DNA of 64,000 nt, from NCBI RefSeq assembly GCF_904846235.1, contig NZ_CAJGZN010000015.1, positions 1 to 64,000 of the forward strand. The letters are read 5' to 3'. A program made the position numbers and the translations under genes. Below the pieces are notes generated by a model. The model was given only the letters and a program-made list of their open reading frames with translations, ran no database searches and had not been told where the DNA came from. The stretch comes from Psychrobacter immobilis. GTDB taxonomy: Bacteria; Pseudomonadota; Gammaproteobacteria; Pseudomonadales; Moraxellaceae. Positions 7,823 to 57,975 of this stretch are shown here, one piece after another; position 1 is the first letter of the stretch; each line of letters begins with the position of its first letter.

Positions 7823-9205
7823 TTAATCGCTCTTTTGAGCGTTGCCTTGCCACTGACGGATAAACTCACCATTTGGATCGTATTGCTGAGTTTGCTTGTC
7901 GAGATTAAACTGCCTGCACCCTCTTGGGTCAGCGCCGACGCCTGCCAGATATTGCCAATTACCCCAATTACTGCCTACATCATAATCAACAAGATGTTGC
8001 TCAAAGTAAGCTGCCCCGTAACGCCAATCAAGGCCTAGCTCATGAATAAAGCAACTAGCAACCAGTTGTCGTCCGCGATTCGACATATAACCTGTCGCAT
8101 TCAATTGGTTCATGCATGCGTTGACGATAGGATACGGTGTCGTACCATTCTTCCATTGTGCTAACAGACTCTCAATCAATTGATTTGAAGGCGCGTGCTG
8201 AGCGATGCCCTTAAACCAAAATAACTTTTGCTGATGGGTGACAGCATACCAGTAGAAATAATCACGCCACAGCAGCTCGAACCATATCCAGTAAGTAGAG
8301 TCATTTGCGATAATATCGCGCTCATAACTGCGCAAACGATTCAATATCGTGTTTACAGACAGTGATCCGTTTGCAAGCCATGCGGAAAACTTCGTAGAAT
8401 GTGTCCAGGCATCTAGCGCGTTTCGGGTTGTTTTATAAGTGCTGGGTGCATCGGAGTCAAAATAAGTATGTAAGTGCTTGAGGCCATTTAACTCACCACC
8501 TCTAAAACTGGATGGCTGCTGTGGTGGCTTATCACGCCCTGCCTGATTAGACAACTGAGATTCAAAAAAGCACTCGTCCCTACTCAACATATTGTCAGGC
8601 AATGGAGCAAGTGTTTCTGGCGTTGGAGAAATGGCTATATCTTTTTCTGCATGCAGCAAATCATAGTCACTTTCTATGTGTTTACGAAACTGTGTAAAAC
8701 TTTTGGGTAAGCTCTCTAGCGGTAACTCGTCAAACAAAATTGCCGTTGTTTGAATGTGCCACTGTATCTCTGGATATTTCGCCTGTAGAAGGTCATATAC
8801 TTTGTTTTGATTATAATCTGCCGTTTGACTGATGCAGATATCTGTCACTTGTTGCTGCGCTATTAGATCATTCAACTGAGTAAAGACGTCCAATGCTTCA
8901 TCGTCTTTCTGTAAATACAGCAACCTATTACCCCGCTGCATCAATGACGCATTTAAATCAGCTAGGCTCTCATGCAAAAACTGCTGGCGGGCTTGGCCCA
9001 TAGCCTCATAGCGATAGGCATCGTAATGGTCTTTATTATCTAATATATCTGTCAACGATGACGCGTAAACCAATAGCAGCTTTCCATTAATGGATATCTT
9101 AGATGCTTTCAATAAAGTGGCATTGTCCGCCACTCTCAAATCATTATGAAATAGTACCAATGTGACATTGTTGTTCTCTAAGTTGTTCGCTGCTTGATTT
9201 GACAT
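7823..9205 (-). CDS. DASH-family cryptochrome/photolyase
   Basis: 460 residues. The N-terminal alpha/beta photolyase domain (VTLVLFHNDLRVADNATLL) would bind the antenna cofactor. The C-terminal FAD-binding helical domain has FRGGELNGLKHLHTYF, STYKTTRNALD, STYWIWFELLWRDYFYWYA, NATGYMSNRGRQLVASCF and DYDVGSNWGNWQYLAGVG, the hallmark DASH segments. DASH cryptochromes repair pyrimidine dimers in single-stranded or looped DNA using blue light. The length is normal for the family. The start at 9205 is supported by AAGGATAGGG upstream. Probably forms an operon with the DUF3429 gene. Confidence 0.92.
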   Translation of the reverse strand: MSNQAANNLENNNVTLVLFHNDLRVADNATLLKASKISINGKLLLVYASSLTDILDNKDHYDAYRYEAMGQARQQFLHESLADLNASLMQRGNRLLYLQKDDEALDVFTQLNDLIAQQQVTDICISQTADYNQNKVYDLLQAKYPEIQWHIQTTAILFDELPLESLPKSFTQFRKHIESDYDLLHAEKDIAISPTPETLAPLPDNMLSRDECFFESQLSNQAGRDKPPQQPSSFRGGELNGLKHLHTYFDSDAPSTYKTTRNALDAWTHSTKFSAWLANGSLSVNTILNRLRSYERDIIANDSTYWIWFELLWRDYFYWYAVTHQQKLFWFKGIAQHAPSNQLIESLLAQWKNGTTPYPIVNACMNQLNATGYMSNRGRQLVASCFIHELGLDWRYGAAYFEQHLVDYDVGSNWGNWQYLAGVGADPRGCRQFNLDKQTQQYDPNGEFIRQWQGNAQKSD

Positions 9206-9411
9206 ACCCTATCCTTCTGGCTGTTTAGCGCTGGTTTATTATTTTTAATTTTTAATCTTAAAATATCATATACGGTACAACACATACTTAGCATTCAATT
9301 TTGATGCTAACCTAATACTTGTAAGGCAATGCGCTCAGCCCCAGAAACCACTTATAAGCATTGACTCTCATGTGTCTGACTGCTTAAATGGCTTACCTCT
9401 AGGAGAACATC

Positions 9412-9660
9412 ATGACTCAAAATAATACTACGACTGAAGAAAATAAATCAGATGAAAAGCGTAAACTTATCAATCGATTTTTGATGAGGTTGACAAAAGA
9501 GCAGCCTCAAATGTATTACGCGACCACCTCTGAGATATCACGAAGTATTCATACGATGATAAAAGAACATACCAACCGCTTGTCAGTAGAAGAGCAAGCA
9601 CTGGTAAGACGGATGACGATGGAAGAAATTGAAGGATTACTTGGCTTTCATGCCAGATAA
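9412..9660 (+). CDS. Small hypothetical protein (82 aa)
   Basis: 82 residues, charged and helix-rich with no signal peptide or membrane segment. It has a strong ribosome-binding site (TAGGAGAACATC before ATG) and its own terminator, so I take it as real. The C-terminal part (LSVEEQALVRRMTMEEIEGL) looks like a helical protein-interaction region. I do not recognise the family. It is divergent from the cryptochrome gene and could share its promoter region. Confidence 0.6.
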   Translation: MTQNNTTTEENKSDEKRKLINRFLMRLTKEQPQMYYATTSEISRSIHTMIKEHTNRLSVEEQALVRRMTMEEIEGLLGFHAR

Positions 9661-9717
9661 CTTATTGACTAGCTTTCAAATATATCGCTCTCAGTAAAAC
9701 ACTGAATGTCTCACAAA

Positions 9718-9750
9718 AAAAGACCGCTATCAAAGCGGTCTTTTTTATTA
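9718..9750. terminator. Bidirectional intrinsic terminator
   Basis: The stem AAGACCGCT...AGCGGTCTT has an A-run and a T-run on its two sides. It lies between the small plus-strand gene and the minus-strand aldehyde dehydrogenase gene. Confidence 0.88.
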
Positions 9751-9776
9751 GCTATCAGCATTCTATTTTAGGACAA

Positions 9777-11255
9777 TTAGAATGGATATTCACGTGGTTC
9801 ATTTTGCATTGAGATCCAATGTGTTCTGGTGAATTCTTCTAGTACCCACTCACCGTTGAAACGGCCGATACCTGAATTTTTCTCACCACCAAAAGCCACG
9901 TTACTTTCATCGTTTACTGGAATATCATTTATATGGGTCATACCTGCTCGGATACCACGAGCGAAACGTAAACCTTTTTGCATGTCTGCGGTAAACACCG
10001 CACTAGATAAGCCATACATAGAATCATTAGCTATCGACAAAGCATCCTCTTCATTTTTGGCTCGAATAATGCCTATCAATGGTCCAAATATTTCATTATA
10101 GGCAATATCCATCTCTCTAGTAACTTCGGTAAAGACATGGGGCGGGACTAATTGACCATTGATTTCACCGCTCAAGAGCATTTTTGCGCCCTCTTTCTGT
10201 GCCTCATCAATCTTATCTCTAAGTGACTGAACTTGTTTCTCATTGATGATTGGGCCAATAGCAGTACCTTGATCGTTAGGATCACCTACCTGTAACGTTT
10301 TAACATGAGACAAGAAACGCTCTACAAACTCATCGTACACTTCATTTTCAACAATAATTCGGTTAATAGCCATACAAATCTGGCCTTGATGCAAGAACTT
10401 ACCGAACACGGCTGCTTTTACTGCCTGATCAATATCTGCATCCTTGAGTACAACAAATGGACTGTTTCCACCTAACTCAAGTGCCACTTGTTTGATATGC
10501 TCACCACCATTAGCTAGCTCACCGATGTGTTTACCCACTGAAGTTGATCCTGTGAATGACACAAAACTTGACGCTTTGTGTTCAACGATTGCATCGCCTA
10601 TCTCGCTACCTGAACCCACAACCACGTTTAACAGACCTTTTGGTAGACCCGCTTCTTCAAATACTTTGGCCAATAGCAAACCACCAGTCACTGGCGTATC
10701 GCTAGCAGGCTTGAGTACCACTGCATTGCCAAGTGCTAAGGCTGGTGCGATAGAACGCTGGGTCAAATGCAGCGGAAAGTTCCATGGGCTAATAACAGCG
10801 ACAACGCCGATTGGCTCACGATAAATGAAGTTTTCTTTACCAGGGGTATTCGATGGACGAATCTCACCATGGACACGGTTAGGAAAAGTCGCTGCTTCAA
10901 GGGTAATCGCGCGCGTCGCACCGAACTCGACCATGACTTTGATACGGGTACTGCCCGACTCTTTGATTAGCCAATCAACGATTTCTTCTTGGCGCTGATC
11001 AAGTATGTTTACGACTTTATACAATACTGCAGAACGCTCTGCTGGCGTCTGCTTGGCCCACGCTTCTTGAGCTTGGGTCGCAGCATCATAGGCTTCGTTC
11101 AACTGATCTTTGGTCGCTTGCTGGATCTCTACAAGCGTATCACCGTTATATGGGTTGGTATTGGTGTTGGTGCTGTTGTCTTTACCGGTTTGCCATTCAC
11201 CAGAGATGAACTGCAAATGGAAATCACTGTATGCACTCGTAGTATTGGTTGACAT
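9777..11255 (-). CDS. NAD(P)-dependent aldehyde dehydrogenase
   Basis: 492 residues of the ALDH superfamily. Catalytic Cys294 lies in GQICMAINR, general base Glu260 in LELGGNSPF, and Asn159 in [15 protein letters not shown] is the cofactor-loop motif. It oxidises aldehydes to acids. The sequence leans to the benzaldehyde/vanillin/salicylaldehyde dehydrogenase group, but the substrate cannot be fixed. The ATG at 11255 is preferred because AAGGA lies about seven bases upstream; a second in-frame ATG two codons earlier has no spacing. It is divergent from a NemR-like repressor gene and shares a palindromic operator with it, so it probably belongs to the carbonyl-stress response. Confidence 0.9.
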
Positions 11256-11787
11256 AATCATCCTTATTTTTGATTTATTGTGTTAAGTATTGGTTTGCGA
11301 TTATTAAAATAAAATTATCAAGTCGGCGATATCTTAATGAGAAAATATCTGGCAAGTAGTAAGTCTAAAATCGTTACCGATCTATAGTCATCACACTATA
11401 AAAGTATTACAGCGTTAACCTTGCTTGAGGTATCAAATATACATCTGCACTCGGTTGCCTTGTACTACTCTTAAATTGCATCGACTAGATCAATTAACAG
11501 TCATCAATTAAAAAAGCTCTAATGAAAGATGTTCTTTAGCAATAAATACTAACGGTAACGGATAACAACAAAACCTACCTTGCTAGACGACTGGTCTAAT
11601 GCTACCATAGCTATCAATAAAACAAGACTACTTTGTCAGTTAATATTGTTGATAAAACGTAACACATATAACTATATCCTATTACAATACGCCATCAACG
11701 TGACGTTCAAGTGAACGCTAACTGTTTTAACTGACTATCTAATGCATACGCTAATACAAGCAACTACTAAGGGAGATAATCCTGTTT
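11256..11787. other. Divergent control region of aldehyde dehydrogenase and nemR
   Basis: This long spacer (532 bases) contains the 15-bp palindrome at 11584-11598 and otherwise AT-rich sequence with no convincing coding frame. It must contain the promoters of both flanking genes. Confidence 0.5.
11584..11598. promoter_or_regulatory. Probable NemR operator 1
   Basis: TAGACGACTGGTCTA, an imperfect palindrome (TAGAC-N5-GTCTA), is repeated identically at 12600-12614 before yqhD. E. coli NemR binds a palindrome with the same TAGAC/GTCTA arms. It lies 186 bases before the nemR start and 329 bases from the aldehyde dehydrogenase start. Confidence 0.7.
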
Positions 11788-12387
11788 ATGTCTAATACAG
11801 ACGCAACGACACCAGATACTAAAGCTCATTTACTTGCCACTGGCTACCAATTAATCGCCAAAAAAGGTTTTACCGCTGTTGGTCTAAAGCAAATTTTAGA
11901 TACAGCAGGTGTGCCAAAGGGTTCTTTTTACCATTATTTTGCTTCTAAAGAAGCCTTTGGTGAAGCCATTATTAATCATTATTTTAGTTTATATAAAACT
12001 CGGTTGGATGTCATCGATGCACAAGATGTCAGTGCGCAGCAAAAGCTATATGATTATTTTCAAAACTGGTATGACACTCAGCAGAACGGCTGTGACCATG
12101 AGAAATGCTTGGTAGTGAAGCTCAGCGCAGAGGTGGCCGATATGTCGGAAACCATGCGCAAGGCACTCGATACTGGCTATCAGCAAACCACCATGTGGCT
12201 TGCTAAGCAGATCAAAGCTGGCTGGCTCGATGAGTCTGTTCCTCGTCACGATAACATCTCGGCTGAGAGTATGGCCAAGCGTTGGTATTTTGCATGGCTT
12301 GGCGCAAGTCTGATCGCAAAGATTAGTCAAACCAATACGCCTTTAGCAGAAATTTGGCAGATGACCACGACCCAAATGGGACGCTAA
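11788..12387 (+). CDS. nemR: TetR-family electrophile-responsive repressor, NemR-like
   Basis: A 199-residue TetR regulator. The helix-turn-helix part (GFTAVGLKQILDTAGVPKGS, FYHYFASKEAFGEAI) and the C-terminal part (CLVVKLSAEVADMSETMRKA, WLGASLIAKIS) align closely with E. coli NemR. In E. coli, NemR is released from DNA by reactive chlorine, quinones and methylglyoxal through Cys106 and Lys175; here Cys107 (EKCLVVKLSAE) and Lys178 occupy these places. A further Cys102 is nearby. GGGAGATAA is the likely ribosome-binding site. The surrounding aldehyde reductase, CurA, DJ-1 and GST genes fit a NemR regulon, and the shared operators support it. Confidence 0.85.
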   Translation: MSNTDATTPDTKAHLLATGYQLIAKKGFTAVGLKQILDTAGVPKGSFYHYFASKEAFGEAIINHYFSLYKTRLDVIDAQDVSAQQKLYDYFQNWYDTQQNGCDHEKCLVVKLSAEVADMSETMRKALDTGYQQTTMWLAKQIKAGWLDESVPRHDNISAESMAKRWYFAWLGASLIAKISQTNTPLAEIWQMTTTQMGR

Positions 12388-12444
12388 TCGTCAACTGTTC
12401 GGATTTCTAGCGACTGCACCTCTAGCACAAACAGCATAAGCATT

Positions 12445-12533
12445 AAGGCATATTGAATATTCATAACGCTCATAGACAGTAGCGGTTAGTACTATGCTTG
12501 ATATTCAGTGTGCTTTATTGCCTTCTCTTTTTT
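12445..12533 (+). terminator. Probable terminator after nemR
   Basis: A long imperfect stem pairs 12445-12460 (AAGGCATATTGAATAT) with 12501-12516 (ATATTCAGTGTGCTTT) using three G-U pairs. It is followed by a T-run at 12528-12533. The gap between stem and T-run makes the call moderate. Confidence 0.5.
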
Positions 12534-12599
12534 AAACAAATTTCTTAAAGACATTTGCAGACGGCTTAGACAGTTATACAAGAGTTTTGTAAATATCAC

Positions 12600-12614
12600 T
12601 AGACGACTGGTCTA
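12600..12614. promoter_or_regulatory. Probable NemR operator 2, upstream of yqhD
   Basis: TAGACGACTGGTCTA is identical to the site at 11584. A TACAAT -10 candidate starts eight bases after it, so the operator would cover the -35 region and spacer, a classic repressor position. The yqhD start is 154 bases downstream. Confidence 0.72.
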
Positions 12615-12767
12615 ATTGGTGTACAATGCGCACAAATATTAAGAATGAATGTCTATGCTAGTAGCATTGCTTATCATTCATTGATTGATATCAGACAATA
12701 TCTCATGTCAAAACCATTTGATTGAACCGTTTTTATTAAAAACTTTTTATTACTAATTAGGAATCTT

Positions 12768-13979
12768 ATGAATAACTTCCAATACTACAACCCAGTCCGT
12801 ATCGTTTTTGGTGAAGGTCAAATCGAGCAACTATCAGATCTAGTCCCTACTGATGCGCGTGTACTCATTACTTATGGTGGTGGTTCAGCACAGCGTACTG
12901 GTACTTTAGACGAAGTAAAAACTGCCTTAGCGGCAAGCGGTAACCGTACTGTATTTGAATTCGGCGGCATCGAAGCCAACCCAGAATTCACTACGCTATT
13001 AAAAGCCGCTGATATGGTTAATGAGCACAACATTGACTTCTTATTAGCAGTTGGCGGTGGTTCTGTGATTGACGGTAGCAAATTCGTCGCACTAGTATCT
13101 TCATTGACTGAAGAAGACGGCACTGTCTCACGTGACCAAGCTTGGGATGCCTTAACTGGTTATTGCAAAAACATCGATTCTGCTGTCGACTTGGGTGCTG
13201 TATTGACCATCCCAGCAACAGGTTCTGAGATGAACTCAGGCGGCGTGATCAACTATAGTGAACGTCAAGCAAAACTACCGTTTGGTAACCCACTTGCCTT
13301 CCCTAAATTCTCAATTTTAGATCCAATCAAAACACTTACCTTGCCTGAGCGTCAGGTTATGAATGGTGTGGCTGATGCATTTGTTCATGTAATGGAACAG
13401 TATCTGACTTATCCAGTAAACGCTAAAGTACAAGATGCCTTTGCTGAAAGCTTGCTTAAAATTCTTATCGATGAAGGTCTAGTCGTTAAGCAAGATCCAG
13501 AAAACCTAGAAACACGTAAGAACATTATGTGGACAGCGACCATGGCATTGAATGGTCTGATCGGTACTGGTGTACCACAAGACTGGACAACTCATATGGT
13601 TGGTCATGAGCTAACATCACTACACGCTATCGATCATGCACGTACGCTAACCATCGTATTGCCATCAGTTATGCGTGAACTAAAAGAAAGCAAAAAAGAA
13701 AAACTGCTTCAGTATGCACGTAACGTATGGAACATCACCGATACTGATCAAGACGACGATGCCATCATCGAAACTGCCATTGTTTACACTGAAAACTTCT
13801 TCCGCGAGCTTGGCTTGCCAGTTAGCCTAGAAGACGTTGACTTGACGGAATCAGCGATTGATCCAATTATCAAGCAACTTGAAGTGCATAACATGGTTAA
13901 GCTTGGTGAACATGGTACCAACGACTTAGAAGTATCACGTCGTATCTTGCAGCGCGCTGTAACTAGCAAAGCGTCTTAA
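12768..13979 (+). CDS. yqhD: NADPH-dependent aldehyde reductase, YqhD-like iron/zinc alcohol dehydrogenase
   Basis: 403 residues of the group III metal-dependent alcohol dehydrogenases. It aligns throughout with E. coli YqhD (ARVLITYGGGS, EFGGIEANPEF, FLLAVGGGSVIDGSKFVA, VPQDWTTHMVGHELTSLHAI). Metal ligands are Asp203, His207, His276 and His290, at the places of E. coli Asp194, His198, His267 and His281. YqhD reduces short aldehydes, including lipid-peroxidation products and glyoxals, with NADPH. The length is about 16 residues more than in E. coli. The start follows a TTAGGAATCTT leader. The operator at 12600 puts it under probable NemR control. Confidence 0.92.
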   Translation: MNNFQYYNPVRIVFGEGQIEQLSDLVPTDARVLITYGGGSAQRTGTLDEVKTALAASGNRTVFEFGGIEANPEFTTLLKAADMVNEHNIDFLLAVGGGSVIDGSKFVALVSSLTEEDGTVSRDQAWDALTGYCKNIDSAVDLGAVLTIPATGSEMNSGGVINYSERQAKLPFGNPLAFPKFSILDPIKTLTLPERQVMNGVADAFVHVMEQYLTYPVNAKVQDAFAESLLKILIDEGLVVKQDPENLETRKNIMWTATMALNGLIGTGVPQDWTTHMVGHELTSLHAIDHARTLTIVLPSVMRELKESKKEKLLQYARNVWNITDTDQDDDAIIETAIVYTENFFRELGLPVSLEDVDLTESAIDPIIKQLEVHNMVKLGEHGTNDLEVSRRILQRAVTSKAS

Positions 13980-14145: not shown

Positions 14146-15195
14146 ATGAGCTTCGACAAACAACAGAATCAACAAACAAATCGTCAAATCAAATTGGCTA
14201 GCCGTCCTAATGGTGAGACAACTGCTGACAACTTTGACATGGCAACTAGCGACATTCCTACGCCAAAAGATAACGAGATGCTACTACGCACGGTATATCT
14301 GTCACTAGATCCGTATATGCGTGGGCGTATGAGCGATGCAAAAAGCTATGCAGACCCGTTAGAAGTCGGTGACGTCATCATGGGTGGTACCGTAGCGCAA
14401 GTGGTCGAGTCGAATATCGACAGCTTCGCGGTAGGCGACTTAGTCGTATCAAACTCAGGCTGGCAGGAATACAGTGTCAGTGATGGCGAAGGCGTCCTCA
14501 AACTAGACAAAAATATGTCAAATCCTTCTTATGGTTTAGGCGTGTTAGGTATGCCAGGGTTCACCGGTTACATGGGGCTGACTGATATCGGTAAACCACA
14601 AAAAGGCGAAACCTTAGTTGTGGCAGCAGCCACTGGACCCGTCGGTGCCACTGTCGGTCAAGTGGGTAATCAATATGGTCTGCGCACTGTCGGTGTGGCA
14701 GGCGGCAAAGAGAAATGCGACTTTGCAGTCAATGAGCTTGACTTTGATATCTGTATTGACCACAAAGCTGACGACTTCGCTGAGCAATTAAAAGCAGCAT
14801 GTCCAGATGGTATCGACATCTACTATGAAAACGTTGGCGGTAAAGTATTTGATGCGGTAATGCCATTACTTAACGACCACGCACGTATTCCAGTATGTGG
14901 TCTGGTATCGCAGTACAATGCAACTGATTTACCTGATGGCAAAGATCGCCTAGGTATGCTGATGGGTCTTATCTTAAGCCAACGCCTAACTGTCAGAGGT
15001 TTCATTATCTTTGAAGAGTACGGCGACCACTTCCCAGAGTTCTTAGAAACCATGAACAAATGGGTAGAGTCAGGCGAAGTGAAAACCAAAGAGCACATTA
15101 CTGACGGTCTAGACAATGCCCCAGATGCATTTGTCAGTATGTTAAACGGTGATAACTTTGGTAAAACCGTAATCAAAGTATCTGACGTTAAATAA
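14146..15195 (+). CDS. NADPH-dependent enone reductase, CurA/YncB-like MDR protein
   Basis: 349 residues of the zinc-independent medium-chain reductase family. MLLRTVYLSLDPYMRGRMSD near residue 50 and the nucleotide-binding stretch TLVVAAATGPVGATVGQVGN are typical of leukotriene B4 dehydrogenase-like and CurA proteins, which reduce the double bond of alpha,beta-unsaturated carbonyl compounds. IYYENVGGKVFDAVMPLL and RLTVRGFIIFEEY are further family segments. AAGGAG lies eight bases before the ATG. It lies downstream of yqhD with a 166-bp gap, so it may have its own promoter. Its activity fits electrophile clearance. Confidence 0.87.
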   Translation: MSFDKQQNQQTNRQIKLASRPNGETTADNFDMATSDIPTPKDNEMLLRTVYLSLDPYMRGRMSDAKSYADPLEVGDVIMGGTVAQVVESNIDSFAVGDLVVSNSGWQEYSVSDGEGVLKLDKNMSNPSYGLGVLGMPGFTGYMGLTDIGKPQKGETLVVAAATGPVGATVGQVGNQYGLRTVGVAGGKEKCDFAVNELDFDICIDHKADDFAEQLKAACPDGIDIYYENVGGKVFDAVMPLLNDHARIPVCGLVSQYNATDLPDGKDRLGMLMGLILSQRLTVRGFIIFEEYGDHFPEFLETMNKWVESGEVKTKEHITDGLDNAPDAFVSMLNGDNFGKTVIKVSDVK

Positions 15196-15434
15196 TTATT
15201 GGTTAAGCATTGACTAGTTAAGCAGCTACTGACAGTTAGCAATCGTTGTGAATAACTACTTAACAACATAAATTGTTAATATCACTACTGAAAGTTGCTT
15301 ACAAAGCAGGAATAATGCTAACAGTCATTATTTGCATCTAGGCTAATTAAGTAAAAACAGCTAATAATGCAACGGAAAACTTATGACTGTTGGCTACATA
15401 GTTACTAACACATAAATAATAAACAAGGATAATT

Positions 15435-16112
15435 ATGAACATTTTAATGGTACTAACGTCTCATGACCGTTTAGGCGATACTGGCAAGAAAACTGGTTTT
15501 TGGCTAGAAGAATTTGCTGCTCCTTACTACGCATTTCTTGACGCTGGCGTAAATGTAACCCTAGCCTCTCCAGCTGGTGGTCAACCACCACTAGATCCTA
15601 GTAGTGACACAGAAGACACGCAAACCAAAGACACCACTCGTTTTAAAGACGACAAAGACGCTCAAGAGCATCTGGCTAACACCAAAAAACTTGCTGACAT
15701 GAACGCTGAAGACTTCGATTCAGTATTCTATCCTGGTGGTCATGGCCCATTGTGGGATTTGGCAGTAGATAAAAATTCTATCAATCTGATTGAGACTTTT
15801 GTTAAGCAAGACAAGCCTGTTGCTTTTGTTTGTCATTCTCCTGCAGCACTTAAAAACGTTAAAGTCGATGGCGAGTATTTGGTAAAAGGCAAAACAGTGA
15901 CTGGTTTTACTAACTCTGAAGAAGATGCAGTTGGCCTAACAGACGTAGTACCGTTCTTAGTAGAAGACGCATTGAAAGCCAATGGCGGTAACTACGAAAA
16001 AGCGGCTGATTGGGAATCATTTGTCGTTGAAGATGGTTTACTAGTCACAGGTCAAAACCCTGCATCATCAGAAGAAGCTGCTAAGCGTCTAATGACGAAG
16101 CTGAAAGGTTAG
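15435..16112 (+). CDS. DJ-1/PfpI family protein, Hsp31-type glyoxalase III candidate
   Basis: 225 residues of the class I glutamine amidotransferase-like fold. Nucleophile-elbow Cys133 lies in VAFVCHSPAAL with His134 beside it, and Glu25 or Glu26 in GFWLEEFAAPY is the usual acidic partner. YPGGHGPLWDL is a family signature. Such proteins act as glutathione-independent glyoxalases or deglycases, converting methylglyoxal to lactate, though chaperone activity is also reported for relatives. The position between a CurA-like reductase and a GST supports carbonyl detoxification. AAGGATAATT precedes the ATG. The GST gene starts 30 bases after the stop, so the two are likely cotranscribed. Confidence 0.87.
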   Translation: MNILMVLTSHDRLGDTGKKTGFWLEEFAAPYYAFLDAGVNVTLASPAGGQPPLDPSSDTEDTQTKDTTRFKDDKDAQEHLANTKKLADMNAEDFDSVFYPGGHGPLWDLAVDKNSINLIETFVKQDKPVAFVCHSPAALKNVKVDGEYLVKGKTVTGFTNSEEDAVGLTDVVPFLVEDALKANGGNYEKAADWESFVVEDGLLVTGQNPASSEEAAKRLMTKLKG

Positions 16113-16142: not shown

Positions 16143-16772
16143 ATGATTCGCTTACATCATCTCAATCAATCACGTTCATTACGTACGCTATGGCTTTTAG
16201 AAGAGCTAGGCGTTCCTTATGAAGTAGTCAGTCATCAGCGCGATGCCAAAACTCATTTAGCACCAGATTCTCTAAAAGCTGTACATCCACTCGGTAAGTC
16301 TCCGGTTATCGAAATGGATGGACAAATTTATGCTGAGTCAGGTGCTATCACTGAGCTGTTGATTGAACGGTTTGCGCCAGAGCGTCTGCGCCCTGCTACA
16401 GGAAGCTCAGACTATGGCTACTATCTACAGTGGATTGATTTTGCAGAAAGCTCGCTCATGTTGCCATTAATGCTTGAGTTATTTACTAACAAAGCAGGCA
16501 TCAACGACAATGAGTTTTTAAACGGCTATATCGAGACAGAAAAAACCAGATTGTTTAAGTATCTGGATACCTCGGTTGAAGGTAAGTCATTTATTGTAGG
16601 TGATAAGCTAAGTGGTGCCGACTTTATGCTGTCATTTGATTTGATTATTCTTGCGAAGCGTCAGAAACTTGACGCCTATCCGCATATCAAACAGTATGCT
16701 GAAAAGCTAGCCAGTCTTGATAGCTATCAGCGTGCGATGCAGCTAGAAGCGAAATACGATGAATCAATTTAG
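16143..16772 (+). CDS. Glutathione S-transferase
   Basis: A 209-residue soluble GST. The N-terminal thioredoxin-like domain begins MIRLHHLNQSRSLRTLWLLE, so a Ser replaces the usual catalytic Tyr/Cys region near residue 11. HPLGKSPVIEMDGQIYAESGAI holds the cis-Pro and glutathione-binding E-S pair. The C-terminal helical domain carries GADFMLSFDL. It conjugates glutathione to electrophiles. It is closely linked to the DJ-1 gene and ends the apparent detoxification cluster. Confidence 0.88.
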   Translation: MIRLHHLNQSRSLRTLWLLEELGVPYEVVSHQRDAKTHLAPDSLKAVHPLGKSPVIEMDGQIYAESGAITELLIERFAPERLRPATGSSDYGYYLQWIDFAESSLMLPLMLELFTNKAGINDNEFLNGYIETEKTRLFKYLDTSVEGKSFIVGDKLSGADFMLSFDLIILAKRQKLDAYPHIKQYAEKLASLDSYQRAMQLEAKYDESI

Positions 16773-17170: not shown

Positions 17171-18859
17171 ATGAGTAACGAATATCAGTTTAAGCCCCAC
17201 GAACAGCCAATAATGGTGGGCTCTCCAGCCAATCCTGACCATCCTGCACGCCGTAAAATATTTTATTTGTTTATTGGGATTTTTGTGGGTCTCACAGCCA
17301 GCTTCCAAAATGGTCTACTTGTCGCCAACCTGACGCAAATTCAGGGTCAGCTAGGCTTAACGCCAGCTGAAGGTGGTTGGATATCGGTCAGTTATAATAT
17401 GACTAATGCCTGTATCACCGTTCTGCTGTACAAAATTCGTCAGCAATTTGGCATGTCGCTTTTTAGCAAAATCACCCTGTCATTTTTGTTAGCTGCCACC
17501 AGTCTACAGTGGCTGATCAGCAGTCACTTGTTAGACACACCTAATATTAGCATTGAGCCCTATTATTTAGAGATTGTCGCTAGGGGACTTAGTGGTATGG
17601 TGGCAAGTGGTATGACCGTATTGGGCTTGTTTTATTGTCTTCAGGGAATGCCAACCGTCAAACGTACTAGTGGTCTCATATTGGGTTTTGGTTTGGTACA
17701 GTTTGGTATTCCATTATCACGTGTCATCTCGCCCTACCTCGCCATCGACGGTCAGCTTGAAAACTTATTTTTATTTCAATTTGGTCTGGCGCTGATTTGT
17801 TTTGGGCTGATTAATATATTGGAGCTACCACCAGGGAATACAGAAAAAGTATTTGAGAAATTGGATTTTGTAAGCTTTGGTTTTTTCGCCAGTGGTCTGG
17901 CTGCATTGGCTGTCGTTTTGGTACAGGGTCGAATTTTATGGTGGACGACACCTTGGCTCGTCTATCCACTGATGATTGCTATCGTCGGGATTAGCATCGC
18001 GTTATGGATTGAGACGCATCGCAAAAATCCGATGCTACAAGTGCGCTGGATGCGTAGCCGCAATATTATTGCCTTTATGGTGACGGGCGCTGTCATGCGG
18101 ATTTTGCTATCTGAGCAAAATGTCGGAGCGGCAGGATTGCTCGCTAACCTCGGCTACGGTAACGATCAGCTGGTTACTTTTTATGCTGTTATTATAGCCG
18201 CCAGTGCACTGGCTTTGATTATTAGTATTTTTAGTACCAATGCGATGGATTTGCGCCGACCTGTTATTTTTGCAGTGGCATTGATTGCCTTAGGGTCTTG
18301 GATGGATGTTGGTGTGTCTATTAATTCAGCGCCCTATATGTTTTATCTTAGCCAGTTTTTGATTGCCTTTGCTGCAGTCTATTTCATGGGGCCTTTGGTT
18401 TTTGAAGGGTTTTTGCGGGCTATTGGCAGTGGCCCTGCGTATATTATTAGTTTTTCAGTGATTTTTGGCATCTCCCAAACAGTTGGCGGACTGGCAGGTG
18501 CGGCAGCCATTCAGGCATTTACGACCATTCGTACACAAATGCATTATGCAGATATGGTCAGCTCATTGAATTTGGGCGATCCTGCATTTAGCGCTCAGGT
18601 GGCAGGCACTCGTAACATGCTGTCGAATCAGACCACTGACGCGGCCCAAGCAAATATCAGTGCAGTTAGCCAAGTACTGCAAGGCATTCAGCGCCAAGCA
18701 ACGGTCGCAGCATACAGCGACCTGTTTTTTCTGATGGCCTGTCTTGCTACTGCCGTTACGATTATTTTGCTGCTCAATTATCTTTATAACCGCTACCACA
18801 AGCGCAATCCACTGGCCAAAGAGCTCGCCGTCATCGCCAAGATGCGCGAAACAAAATAA
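17171..18859 (+). CDS. DHA2-family MFS multidrug efflux permease, EmrB-like
   Basis: 562 residues with about 14 predicted transmembrane helices beginning near residue 30. The segment AEGGWISVSYNMTNACI fits the DHA2/EmrB subfamily, but the usual loop 2-3 basic motif is poorly kept. A large loop near residues 455-510 precedes the last helix. It pairs with the membrane-fusion protein encoded 88 bases downstream, as in EmrAB/FarAB tripartite pumps that export hydrophobic or weakly acidic toxins. The order (permease first, fusion protein second) is the reverse of E. coli emrAB. No outer-membrane channel gene is in the cluster. Confidence 0.85.
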   Translation: MSNEYQFKPHEQPIMVGSPANPDHPARRKIFYLFIGIFVGLTASFQNGLLVANLTQIQGQLGLTPAEGGWISVSYNMTNACITVLLYKIRQQFGMSLFSKITLSFLLAATSLQWLISSHLLDTPNISIEPYYLEIVARGLSGMVASGMTVLGLFYCLQGMPTVKRTSGLILGFGLVQFGIPLSRVISPYLAIDGQLENLFLFQFGLALICFGLINILELPPGNTEKVFEKLDFVSFGFFASGLAALAVVLVQGRILWWTTPWLVYPLMIAIVGISIALWIETHRKNPMLQVRWMRSRNIIAFMVTGAVMRILLSEQNVGAAGLLANLGYGNDQLVTFYAVIIAASALALIISIFSTNAMDLRRPVIFAVALIALGSWMDVGVSINSAPYMFYLSQFLIAFAAVYFMGPLVFEGFLRAIGSGPAYIISFSVIFGISQTVGGLAGAAAIQAFTTIRTQMHYADMVSSLNLGDPAFSAQVAGTRNMLSNQTTDAAQANISAVSQVLQGIQRQATVAAYSDLFFLMACLATAVTIILLLNYLYNRYHKRNPLAKELAVIAKMRETK

Positions 18860-18947
18860 TTCAACTTATTATCTTAGTGATTTTTTATCATATTTATTTA
18901 TAGTCAGACCAATCAGATATCTGCTTATTAACATTTAGGAGCATGTC

Positions 18948-20264
18948 ATGAGCCAAGAAAAACCAAATGAGCTTAATAAAATACCTCAGACGTCAACTGA
19001 TGCTCCAGCAACAGACACACGTACAGAGTCTGCTACGGCTCCAGTAGAGACCGCTACAAGCGCTACGCAAAAGAAAACGGATACATCCGAGATACAAGCA
19101 GCTACTGATACGCCTGATAGCGTGCGTGAGGATAACTCTGTAGAAGGCTCTATAGAAAATCAAGACGATGATAATGAAACGCCTATGCCGCCAAAAGAGC
19201 CGATATCAAATACGGCTGGCTGGTCTCCCAAGAAAAAATCCTATCTAAATTTGGGATTATTGATTGCGCTGATTGTCATTGGTGTGGCCTTGATTTTATA
19301 TGCTTGGAAGCTACCACCATTTACGCCTACGGTGCAACAAACCAATAACGCCTTTGTCAAAGGTCAAACCACTATTATTAGTCCGCAAGTTTCCGGCTAT
19401 GTCACCGAAGTGGCGGTGCAGGATTTTGCTGATGTAAAAGCGGGCGATCTACTGATAAAAATAGATGATCGAACGTTTCAACAACAACTTGAACAAGCCG
19501 AGGCCAATACTGAAGTGGCGGTCACCAGTCGCTCTACCAATGTTCAAGACACGCAATCTAGCCAAGCACAAATCGAAGCACGCAAAGCAGACTTATATAG
19601 TGCCAAAATCAATGTCGAGAGCGCTCGTGAAGACGTCAATCGCTATCAAGGCTTAGATGCTATCGGTGCGGTATCAAAAGCAGAAGTGGCTCATATCAAG
19701 GCGCAATTGGCCCAAGCACAGGCAGGTGTACAGCAAGCAGAAGCCAATTTACAGGCCGCTCAAGAAAACCGTGAAAAGACTAGCGGTAGTCGCTCATCGC
19801 TAGATGCAAATATCAAAAATGCTGAGGCAGGCGTCAAGCAAGCGCAAATCAATCTAGACAATACTATTATCACTGCGCCTGAATCTGGCCAGCTAAGCCA
19901 AGTCAGTGTCAAAGAAGGCCAATACGTCAGCGCTGGTACGCAGCTTATGTATATCGTGCCAAAAGGCATTTGGATCATTGCAAACTTTAAAGAAACTCAA
20001 ATAGCCAATATGGCAATCGGTGAGCCTGCGACCATTCATGTCGATGCGCTTGGCGGTGCCAAATTTAATGGTCACATCAGTAATATCTCGCCAGCAACGG
20101 GCAGTGAGTTTAGTGCAGGTGCAGCCAACCCTGCGACTGGTAACTACATAAAAATCGCTCAACGTATCCCTGTACGCATTGACTTAGACCAAGATCAGCC
20201 TGAACTGGCACGCTTACGTCCTGGTATGTCAGTCTCAGTGGATGTCGATACCAATATTAAATGA
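18948..20264 (+). CDS. HlyD/EmrA-type membrane fusion protein
   Basis: 438 residues. A long acidic, Thr/Ser-rich cytosolic N-terminus (about residues 1-95) precedes a single transmembrane helix (YLNLGLLIALIVIGVALILY). After it come a biotinyl-lipoyl half (NAFVKGQTTIISPQVSGYVT), an alanine- and glutamine-rich coiled-coil hairpin (about 175-290), the second lipoyl half (NTIITAPESGQLSQVSVKEG) and a beta barrel. The N-terminal extension is longer than in EmrA. TTTAGGAGCATGTC supplies a good ribosome-binding site. It should link the upstream permease to an outer-membrane channel. Confidence 0.88.
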   Translation: MSQEKPNELNKIPQTSTDAPATDTRTESATAPVETATSATQKKTDTSEIQAATDTPDSVREDNSVEGSIENQDDDNETPMPPKEPISNTAGWSPKKKSYLNLGLLIALIVIGVALILYAWKLPPFTPTVQQTNNAFVKGQTTIISPQVSGYVTEVAVQDFADVKAGDLLIKIDDRTFQQQLEQAEANTEVAVTSRSTNVQDTQSSQAQIEARKADLYSAKINVESAREDVNRYQGLDAIGAVSKAEVAHIKAQLAQAQAGVQQAEANLQAAQENREKTSGSRSSLDANIKNAEAGVKQAQINLDNTIITAPESGQLSQVSVKEGQYVSAGTQLMYIVPKGIWIIANFKETQIANMAIGEPATIHVDALGGAKFNGHISNISPATGSEFSAGAANPATGNYIKIAQRIPVRIDLDQDQPELARLRPGMSVSVDVDTNIK

Positions 20265-56900: not shown

Positions 56901-57788
56901 ATGTCAAACTCTAATCATTACGAGCCACCCAGCGTCTGGACATGGGATGCAGAAAGCGGTGGTAAGTGGGCAAGTGTCAACCGCCCTATCGCTGGCCCAA
57001 CACATGAAGCGGATCTACCTCGCGGCAAACATCCGTTACAGATCTACTCAATGGGCACCCCTAATGGCCAAAAAGTCACCATTATGGTTGAAGAGTTATT
57101 GGCATTAGGTGTGACAGACGCTGAGTACGACGCGCACCTTATTCAAATTGGTGAAGGCGGACAGTTCTCATCAGGTTTCGTTGAGCTAAATCCAAACTCA
57201 AAAATCCCTGTACTTTTGGATACAGAGACTGGTAGCCGTGTGTTTGAGAGTGGCGCCATTTTATTCTATCTTGCTGAAAAATTCGGAAAACTACTGCCTA
57301 AAGATGCAGCAGCACGCACTGAAGTCATGAATTGGCTCTTCTGGTTACAAGGCTCTGCCCCTTACTTAGGCGGCGGTTTTGGACATTTCTACTTTTATGC
57401 GCCAGAAAAGTTTGAGTACCCTATCAATCGATTCACGATGGAAGTAAAACGTCAATTAGATGTACTAGAACGTGAGCTTGCAGAAAATCGCTATCTAGGT
57501 GGCAATGAGTATACGATTGCAGATATCGCCACTTGGCCTTGGTATGGCAATCTAATACTAGGTGAAGCATACAATGCAGGAGAATTCCTACAAGTTGAGA
57601 GCTATCCAAATGTACGTCGCTGGGCAACTGAGATTTTAGAGCGTCCTGCTGTGCAACGTGGTCGCAAGGTAAACCGCACTTGGGGTGAACCTGCTGAGCA
57701 ATTACACGAACGTCATGATGCGTCAGACTTTGAGTTAAAAACTCAAGATAAACTAGATGCTCAGACAACTGAAGAATCGAAAAAATAG
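56901..57788 (+). CDS. yghU: YghU-like glutathione-dependent disulfide reductase
   Basis: 295 residues, the YghU/Ure2p-like GST group. It has the long N-terminal arm (YEPPSVWTWDAESGGKWASV NRP) and LQIYSMGTPNGQKVTIMVEE with the conserved Thr-Asn; FVELNPNSKIPVLLDTET holds the cis-Pro; NEYTIADIATWPWYGNL is a helical-domain motif. YghU binds two glutathiones and reduces disulfides rather than conjugating electrophiles. It lies 70 bases after the DsbA-like gene and is probably cotranscribed. Confidence 0.92.
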   Translation: MSNSNHYEPPSVWTWDAESGGKWASVNRPIAGPTHEADLPRGKHPLQIYSMGTPNGQKVTIMVEELLALGVTDAEYDAHLIQIGEGGQFSSGFVELNPNSKIPVLLDTETGSRVFESGAILFYLAEKFGKLLPKDAAARTEVMNWLFWLQGSAPYLGGGFGHFYFYAPEKFEYPINRFTMEVKRQLDVLERELAENRYLGGNEYTIADIATWPWYGNLILGEAYNAGEFLQVESYPNVRRWATEILERPAVQRGRKVNRTWGEPAEQLHERHDASDFELKTQDKLDAQTTEESKK

Positions 57789-57975
57789 ACGCTTTGTCTA
57801 TGATTTACTAGCCTACTTAAATAGTCTTATTGGTCTATTTTAAAGGTAATGTTAATTTTTCCTGTTACTACTTGGGACGACTGTAAACATCCAATACTTT
57901 TGCACTTAAGACTGCTACTGTAAGGCTGTTAAATACCAACTAACCATAAAAATACTATTAAAAAGGATAAGAACT

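Follow-up and report, generated by a model that had tools for sequence, protein, structure and literature searches.

The closest described relatives of the locus reported here belong to the CurR, NemR and AcuR group of TetR-family repressors. CurR (PA2196) of P. aeruginosa is reported to control curA (PA2197) and to respond to hypochlorite and N-ethylmaleimide (a 2024 study, as cited in PMC12239554 and PMC12838394); literature searches for CurR gave no paper about it among the matches listed. A structure of PA2196 with its operator exists (a 2013 paper, as cited in PMC10636190), and two non-interacting dimers are described as binding the DNA cooperatively (PMC6393540); the searched text of PMC9774640 mentions neither curA nor PA2196. 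AcuR of Rhodobacter sphaeroides has the operator TAATAGAC-n6-GTCTATTA, whose mutants are constitutive (PMC3017554), and AltR of Pantoea ananatis is a NemR homologue in which Cys100 is essential for release (PMC13178969). Residue roles in E. coli NemR, including that of Cys106, are summarized in PMC8748444; by its account the Cys-Lys sulfenamide proposed for NemR is unsupported in Hypocrates, a sensor that moreover does not respond to glyoxal, methylglyoxal or formaldehyde. The yqhD gene of E. coli is controlled by YqhC (PMC3739934).

The window, a stretch of 64,000 nucleotides from Psychrobacter immobilis, contains in order an aldehyde dehydrogenase (ALDH) gene transcribed leftwards, a spacer with operator 1, a repressor gene of this group, a gap with operator 2, and yqhD-like, curA, DJ-1-like and glutathione S-transferase (GST)-like genes (Table 1). 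CurR is the nearest studied relative and curA is linked to the repressor here too, but yqhD comes first and DJ-1 and GST follow curA. The relatives L158 and L297 likewise have N5 operators with curA, in part with DJ-1. With NemR the window system shares a TetR repressor, the Cys/Lys pair, the recognition stretch VPKGSFYHYF, the half-sites TAGAC/GTCTA and the placement of an operator inside the promoter of the repressor gene itself, between -35 and -10; in K-12 nemR this reads TTGCAC-operator-C-TACACT, the 16-bp site plus one base filling the 17-bp spacer. However, the NemR own-promoter site TAGACCGACTGGTCTA has N6 spacing (16 bp), the form seen in E. coli and its close relatives, and the sites here N5 spacing (15 bp), and the E. 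coli targets are nemA and gloA (nemR-nemA-gloA) rather than yqhD-curA-DJ-1-GST. AcuR has the same half-sites and an operator placed over its promoter (PMC3017554), and its cysteine is kept in the AcuR proteins of the genus, but the spacing is n6 and its targets are acuI and dddL; the AcuR of the window genome is another gene, on contig 4, where acuI sits beside it, unlinked to the window repressor. AltR differs in its operator, CAATCTAC-N6-GTAGATTG, and in controlling thiosulfinate-tolerance genes (PMC13178969). Five operator strings had no match in the literature text searched, and a literature search for NemR regulon reconstructions gave no paper naming NemR among the matches listed.

We consider it probable (about 0.8) that the window repressor controls itself and the yqhD-curA-DJ-1-GST genes through the two operators and is released by electrophiles. 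The sites, promoter footprints, residue conservation and co-occurrence of operator and repressor on which this reading draws were computed. A preliminary description of this DNA had proposed a NemR-type carbonyl-stress regulon; the two predicted operators, the sensor residues and the yqhD-curA-DJ-1-GST genes agree with that proposal, and the ALDH gene, which it had included, is unsupported as a target. The repressor thus appears as a further member of a known electrophile-sensing group, with a composite regulon, and the locus offers a compact carbonyl-stress regulon, open to testing, in a genus beyond the usual models.

Table 1. Features of the repressor locus, with positions in the window
Feature	Position	Strand	Remarks
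Aldehyde dehydrogenase, divergent neighbour	9777..11261	-	unsupported as target
Predicted repressor promoter	11580..11608	+	-35 TTGCTA (11580-11585), 17 bp, -10 TACCAT (11603-11608)
Operator 1, TAGACGACTGGTCTA	11584..11598	+	ALDH/repressor spacer; predicted autoregulatory site of repressor
TetR-family repressor, 199 aa, CurR/NemR/AcuR group	11788..12387	+	Cys102, Cys107, Lys178
Operator 2, identical to operator 1	12600..12614	+	gap between repressor and yqhD
Predicted yqhD promoter	12600..12627	+	-35 TAGACG, supplied by the left arm of operator 2; spacer 16 bp; -10 TACAAT (12622-12627)
YqhD-like iron-containing alcohol dehydrogenase / aldehyde reductase	12768..13979	+	predicted target
CurA, NADPH-dependent curcumin/enone reductase	14146..15195	+	predicted target; NF058644
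DJ-1/PfpI-family protein	15435..16112	+	predicted target
Glutathione S-transferase-like protein	16143..16772	+	predicted target

The repressor and its sensor residues

The repressor has a TetR_N DNA-binding domain (PF00440, 47.1 bits; cut-off 24). Its best family model is CurR (NF058643) of Pseudomonas, where it scores 202.8 bits against a cut-off of 300 that none of 194 order genomes passed; the second is AcuR (NF051457) at 122.6 bits, below the cut-off of 247. The closest PDB matches are 3rd3 and 4l62, both of which we take to be PA2196, then 3knw, and then E. coli NemR (4yze). The free quick tree places the genus proteins on a branch of their own, apart from enterobacterial NemR; constraining the two together costs only 0.23 log units and is unrejected (p-AU 0.491), so that a clear non-orthology of the window repressor and NemR, considered as a candidate reading, is not upheld. 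The label 'NemR-type' is apt for the mode of working, whereas as a statement of membership it may or may not hold: the operator is one base shorter, the best model is CurR (below its cut-off), and the tree allows either placement (p-AU 0.49 for the joint clade).

In alignment with NemR, Cys107 corresponds to Cys106 and Lys178 to Lys175 (numbering computed on the 4yze chain), and the alignment bears out the earlier statement that the reactive pair is retained: among 189 regulator rows, drawn from genus, order, class and NemR-seeded loci with a few proteins repeated and the window repressor present three times, Cys107 is kept in all 189 and Lys178 in 170, with Arg in 16 and another residue or a gap in 3. 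The nearby Cys102 is kept in 37/37 genus rows and in 12/30 order-level rows (five being themselves genus loci), whereas all 11 genus AcuR rows have it replaced.

The operators, their promoters and their direction

Both copies of TAGACGACTGGTCTA in the window lie on the + strand, 1016 bp apart, and their identity extends to the 18 bp CTAGACGACTGGTCTAAT. The preliminary description had reported identical 15-bp operators in the ALDH/repressor spacer and before yqhD, and the match is exact, with two matches to TAGACGAYYGGTCTA in the window and none in 100 shuffles. Operator 1 overlaps the predicted repressor promoter, between its -35 and -10, within the genus footprint CTTG[C/A]TAGACGACTGGTCTAATG.TA.CATAG (27 distinct sequences); the TTGCTA-17-TACCAT arrangement was read by eye from this footprint and is absent from the output of the consensus promoter scan. 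Operator 2, previously placed at the -35 region of yqhD, does overlap a promoter-like TAGACG-16-TACAAT, one of 8 such matches found in its stretch by the consensus scan, against 6.6 in shuffles; the genus footprint here, CTAGACGAC.GGTCTAATT..TGTACAATGC, is a conserved block pointing at yqhD (28 distinct sequences). Judged from sequence, it is very likely that both sites serve the adjacent repressor as operators.

The repressor would bind both operators, perhaps as two dimers per site by analogy with PA2196. Occupation of operator 1 would block the repressor's own promoter, giving negative autoregulation, and occupation of operator 2 would block the promoter of yqhD-curA-DJ-1-GST, which we infer to be co-transcribed. 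Hypochlorite, reactive carbonyls or enones are the candidate ligands, and would modify Cys107, possibly with the participation of Lys178 and Cys102; the modified repressor would then free the DNA, and enzymes predicted to remove such compounds would be switched on.

The assignment of the four downstream genes to the YqhD, CurA, DJ-1 and GST families is upheld by Pfam and NCBIfam with a reservation for YqhD. CurA scores 569.6 bits on NF058644 (cut-off 440), the DJ-1/PfpI and GST proteins lie above their Pfam cut-offs, and the YqhD-like protein is above the Pfam Fe-ADH cut-off but below the NCBIfam equivalog cut-off (500.4 versus 645 bits); their activities are predictions. The Pfam and NCBIfam profiles found neither nemA nor gloA among the scanned window neighbours of the repressor. 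Within the predicted operon, yqhD and curA are separated by 166 bp and curA and DJ-1 by 239 bp, enough to accommodate internal promoters; weak + strand promoter matches occur at 15288 and 15405, in a stretch whose total of 11 matches is inside the shuffle range.

Two further features flank these genes. An 82-aa open reading frame with no Pfam or NCBIfam match (9412-9660, + strand) lies between phr and the ALDH/repressor locus and is found at the same place in 17/20 genus neighbourhoods with 53-100% identity. After the GST gene (17171-20264, + strand) come a 562-aa transporter-like protein, also lacking a Pfam or NCBIfam match and called 'MFS' on our own reading, and an EmrA-like adaptor, present in 13/20 and 10/20 genus loci respectively, some of these loci being incomplete. 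The window site search found no operator-like site before these two genes.

The N5 sites are imperfect palindromes, reading TAGACG...GGTCTA in one direction and TAGACC...CGTCTA in the other. Relative to the regulator gene, 220 sites are forward and one is reverse, with 5 further sites unscorable by the rule; the counts include rows fetched twice and come from variously related loci, so that they are not independent events. The sole reversed site (L286) lies between a regulator and a divergent DJ-1 gene. Two-dimer binding of the kind described for PA2196 may be part of this directionality, although two dimers might also be arranged symmetrically. Simple predictions on binding follow from the rules of spacing and direction.

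By the same rule operator 1 serves the repressor, which bears on the alternative that this operator is bidirectional and the divergent ALDH gene is a target as well. ALDH and operator do travel together: a search with the N-terminal part of ALDH found the gene in 29/30 genus loci, each of the 29 having the operator as well; among 20 more diverse genus loci ALDH is present in 15, of which 14 have the operator, and 3 further loci have neither, so that 17/20 agree with a link and some shared history is indicated; in one locus the operator is only 88 bp from the ALDH start. However, the 27 distinct spacers contain no conserved promoter block toward ALDH, strong conservation on that side being confined to the operator with its flank and to some positions beside the ALDH start, and across 29 loci the operator-to-ALDH distance varies between 88 and 322 bp. 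The conserved -35 and -10 at operator 1 are directed at the repressor, as is the operator core, in common with 220 of the 221 scored sites. Operator and ALDH also separate in 3/20 loci: L110 lacks ALDH and keeps the operator, with an IS4-family transposase gene upstream on the same strand as the repressor; L119 keeps the operator where the divergent gene is a NAD-glutamate dehydrogenase; and L122 retains ALDH where the operator is absent. A role for ALDH as a target, as previously claimed, is therefore unlikely, and on the sequence evidence the gene is probably outside the regulon.

In a divergent member of the genus (L123), the gene divergent to the repressor (8143-10122) matches the NCBIfam model 'bilirubin reductase, long form' (1006 versus 750 bits); ALDH lies at another place in this locus, and no operator is present upstream of the repressor.

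Sites in the window genome and across the genus

The repressor is present in 58/60 genus genomes, and in a census of TAGACGAYYRGTCTA all 142 sites fell in these 58, with none in the other two, one of which is 83% and the other 95% complete; the reversed control gave 2 hits in the 60 genomes. Sorted by distance only, 108 sites are at the repressor and 19 between acuR and acuI; a further 12 are close to a yhdH-type gene, and 3 are elsewhere. The repressor has two sites in 50 genomes and one in 8, at least two of these 8 being broken contigs, and acuR-acuI gap sites occur in 10/10 genomes having that acuI. The three sites elsewhere are within a gene, between convergent genes, and at a contig end beside phr, the last probably being the repressor locus again, cut by a break in the assembly. 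Repressor, operator 2, yqhD, curA and DJ-1 are found together in all 20 fetched genus loci, and GST in 18. An operator precedes the repressor in 16/20 and is absent there in the 4 most divergent; ALDH is present in 15/20.

The genome scan for TAGAC-N5-GTCTA that the preliminary description had suggested yields 6 sites in 3.22 Mb (reversed control, 0), of which two are the window operators, two belong to acuR-acuI and two resemble chance occurrences. The acuR-acuI sites lie 34 bp apart within the 79-bp gap on contig 4, and both products pass their NCBIfam cut-offs (AcuR 319.4 versus 247; AcuI 575.1 versus 440). Because the motif also occurs there, a genome scan alone is insufficient to define the regulon of one repressor. 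A site on contig 7 before an Oxidored_FMN (old-yellow-enzyme type) gene was rejected, being absent from all 13 other close orthologous loci (L045-L057); if real, it would have widened the parallel with nemA. The site at 57786-57800 was also set aside, as it has a core mismatch and extends over the stop codon of a gene for a glutathione-dependent oxidoreductase.

These sites allow two other readings of the repeated motif. That it reflects chance, an unrelated repeat or the site of another regulator is very improbable: two of the six genome sites do look like chance, and pooling N4-N7 spacings gives 9 matches versus 10 reversed and no enrichment, but conservation in the genus, absence from the same genomes as the repressor and the empty shuffles all speak against it. 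It is a more serious possibility, though still one we would hold tentatively, that the operators are common to two paralogues, with the contig 4 AcuR also binding the window sites or the window repressor the acuI sites, and that acrylate and carbonyl responses are cross-wired. The same 15-bp class stands at both loci of the window genome, one acuI site in genome G029 is letter-identical to the window operators, and the recognition stretches of the paralogues, VPKGSFY[H/N]YF, are one residue apart. On the other side, the flanks differ, with usually C before window-type sites and T or A before acuI sites, and a close AcuR paralogue is present in only 10/60 genus genomes and is thus dispensable for the window system. 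Operators shared by paralogues in one genome offer a clean case for studying the insulation of related repressors, and we retain control of the window operators by the window repressor as the preferred reading.

The zinc-dehydrogenase/yhdH operon was considered as a further target and rejected for the window genome, where no site is present even with up to 2 mismatches (L124). The operon bears the operator in four genus members (L125, L126, L127 and L128), and 16 of the 20 scanned zinc-dehydrogenase/yhdH loci lack an exact site. The 12 genus genomes with a site near a yhdH-type gene, as assigned by distance, mostly have TAGACGACCAGTCTA (sequence inspected in 4), and a three-sequence alignment of the yhdH promoter is too poor to reveal its history. 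The likely membership of the regulon is thus revised, with ALDH probably out and a second operon in for some relatives.

The operator class beyond the genus

TAGAC-N5/6-GTCTA sites were found in 27/30 order-level loci (40 sites; reversed control, 1), 17/30 class-level loci (22 sites; reversed control, 0) and 77/80 NemR-seeded loci (124 sites; reversed control, 1; simple expectation, 0.84). One scrambled control gave 0, 0 and 0 in these three sets and the other 0, 1 and 8. The NemR-seeded loci are the best 80 of 578 from a scan of named genomes and, being best hits, are non-random; the three sets overlap in a few loci, and the order and class sets contain the window locus. In the tree set of 133 regulators, from which rows below 85 bits, four repeats and, by mistake, L201 were left out, 117 have an operator-class site within 450 bp. 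The operator class therefore adjoins most sampled members of the group, usually beside electrophile-detoxification genes.

Relatedness is taken into account by the tree counts only. By parsimony, the N5/N6 spacing of the own-promoter site needs 2 changes across 111 rows, the minimum in 200 shuffles being 22. Among 118 rows with a neighbour call, the changes number 8 for a NemA-like neighbour, 9 for CurA, 11 for DJ-1, 4 for YqhD, 4 for GloA, 3 for zinc dehydrogenase and 1 for AcuI; shuffles were run for spacing only, and neighbour absences are soft, as they rest on tblastn calls with a minimum identity of 40% in loci that differ in length. That the targets here differ from those of E. coli NemR, as had been pointed out, is thus true yet ordinary, since neighbours change many times across the group. 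Outside the genus, YqhD is found after the same operator in L190 and in Methylophaga (L296), and in Mariprofundus (L259) a repressor preceded by an operator is followed by yqhD-curA.

N6 spacing at the own promoter is seen in 34 sites, those of E. coli K-12, L218-L247, L186, L203 and L270. In 11 loci the same regulator has an N6 site upstream and an N5 site downstream, and the E. coli K-12 nemR locus has the N6 site only, before nemR.

A general scheme may be proposed for these repressors in the Proteobacteria, although we would put it forward as a conjecture with the odds somewhat against it. One directional 15-bp code, fixed in orientation, would be read by paralogues in one cell, and regulons would grow, shrink and cross-talk by gain and loss of sites while the repressors stay near-constant. 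N6 spacing would be derived, mostly on one branch, where one NemR may face both forms. The direction would reflect an asymmetric complex, for instance within a two-dimer mode of the PA2196 type, or direct interplay with RNA polymerase.

Two arrangements recur among the sampled loci. In L220, L221, L222, L230, L235-L238, L242 and L247 nemR is preceded by an N6 site and followed by an N5 site ahead of nemA, and in L256, L279 and L287 DJ-1-like genes follow two N5 operators (131, 73 and 41 bp apart respectively) upstream of the regulator gene.
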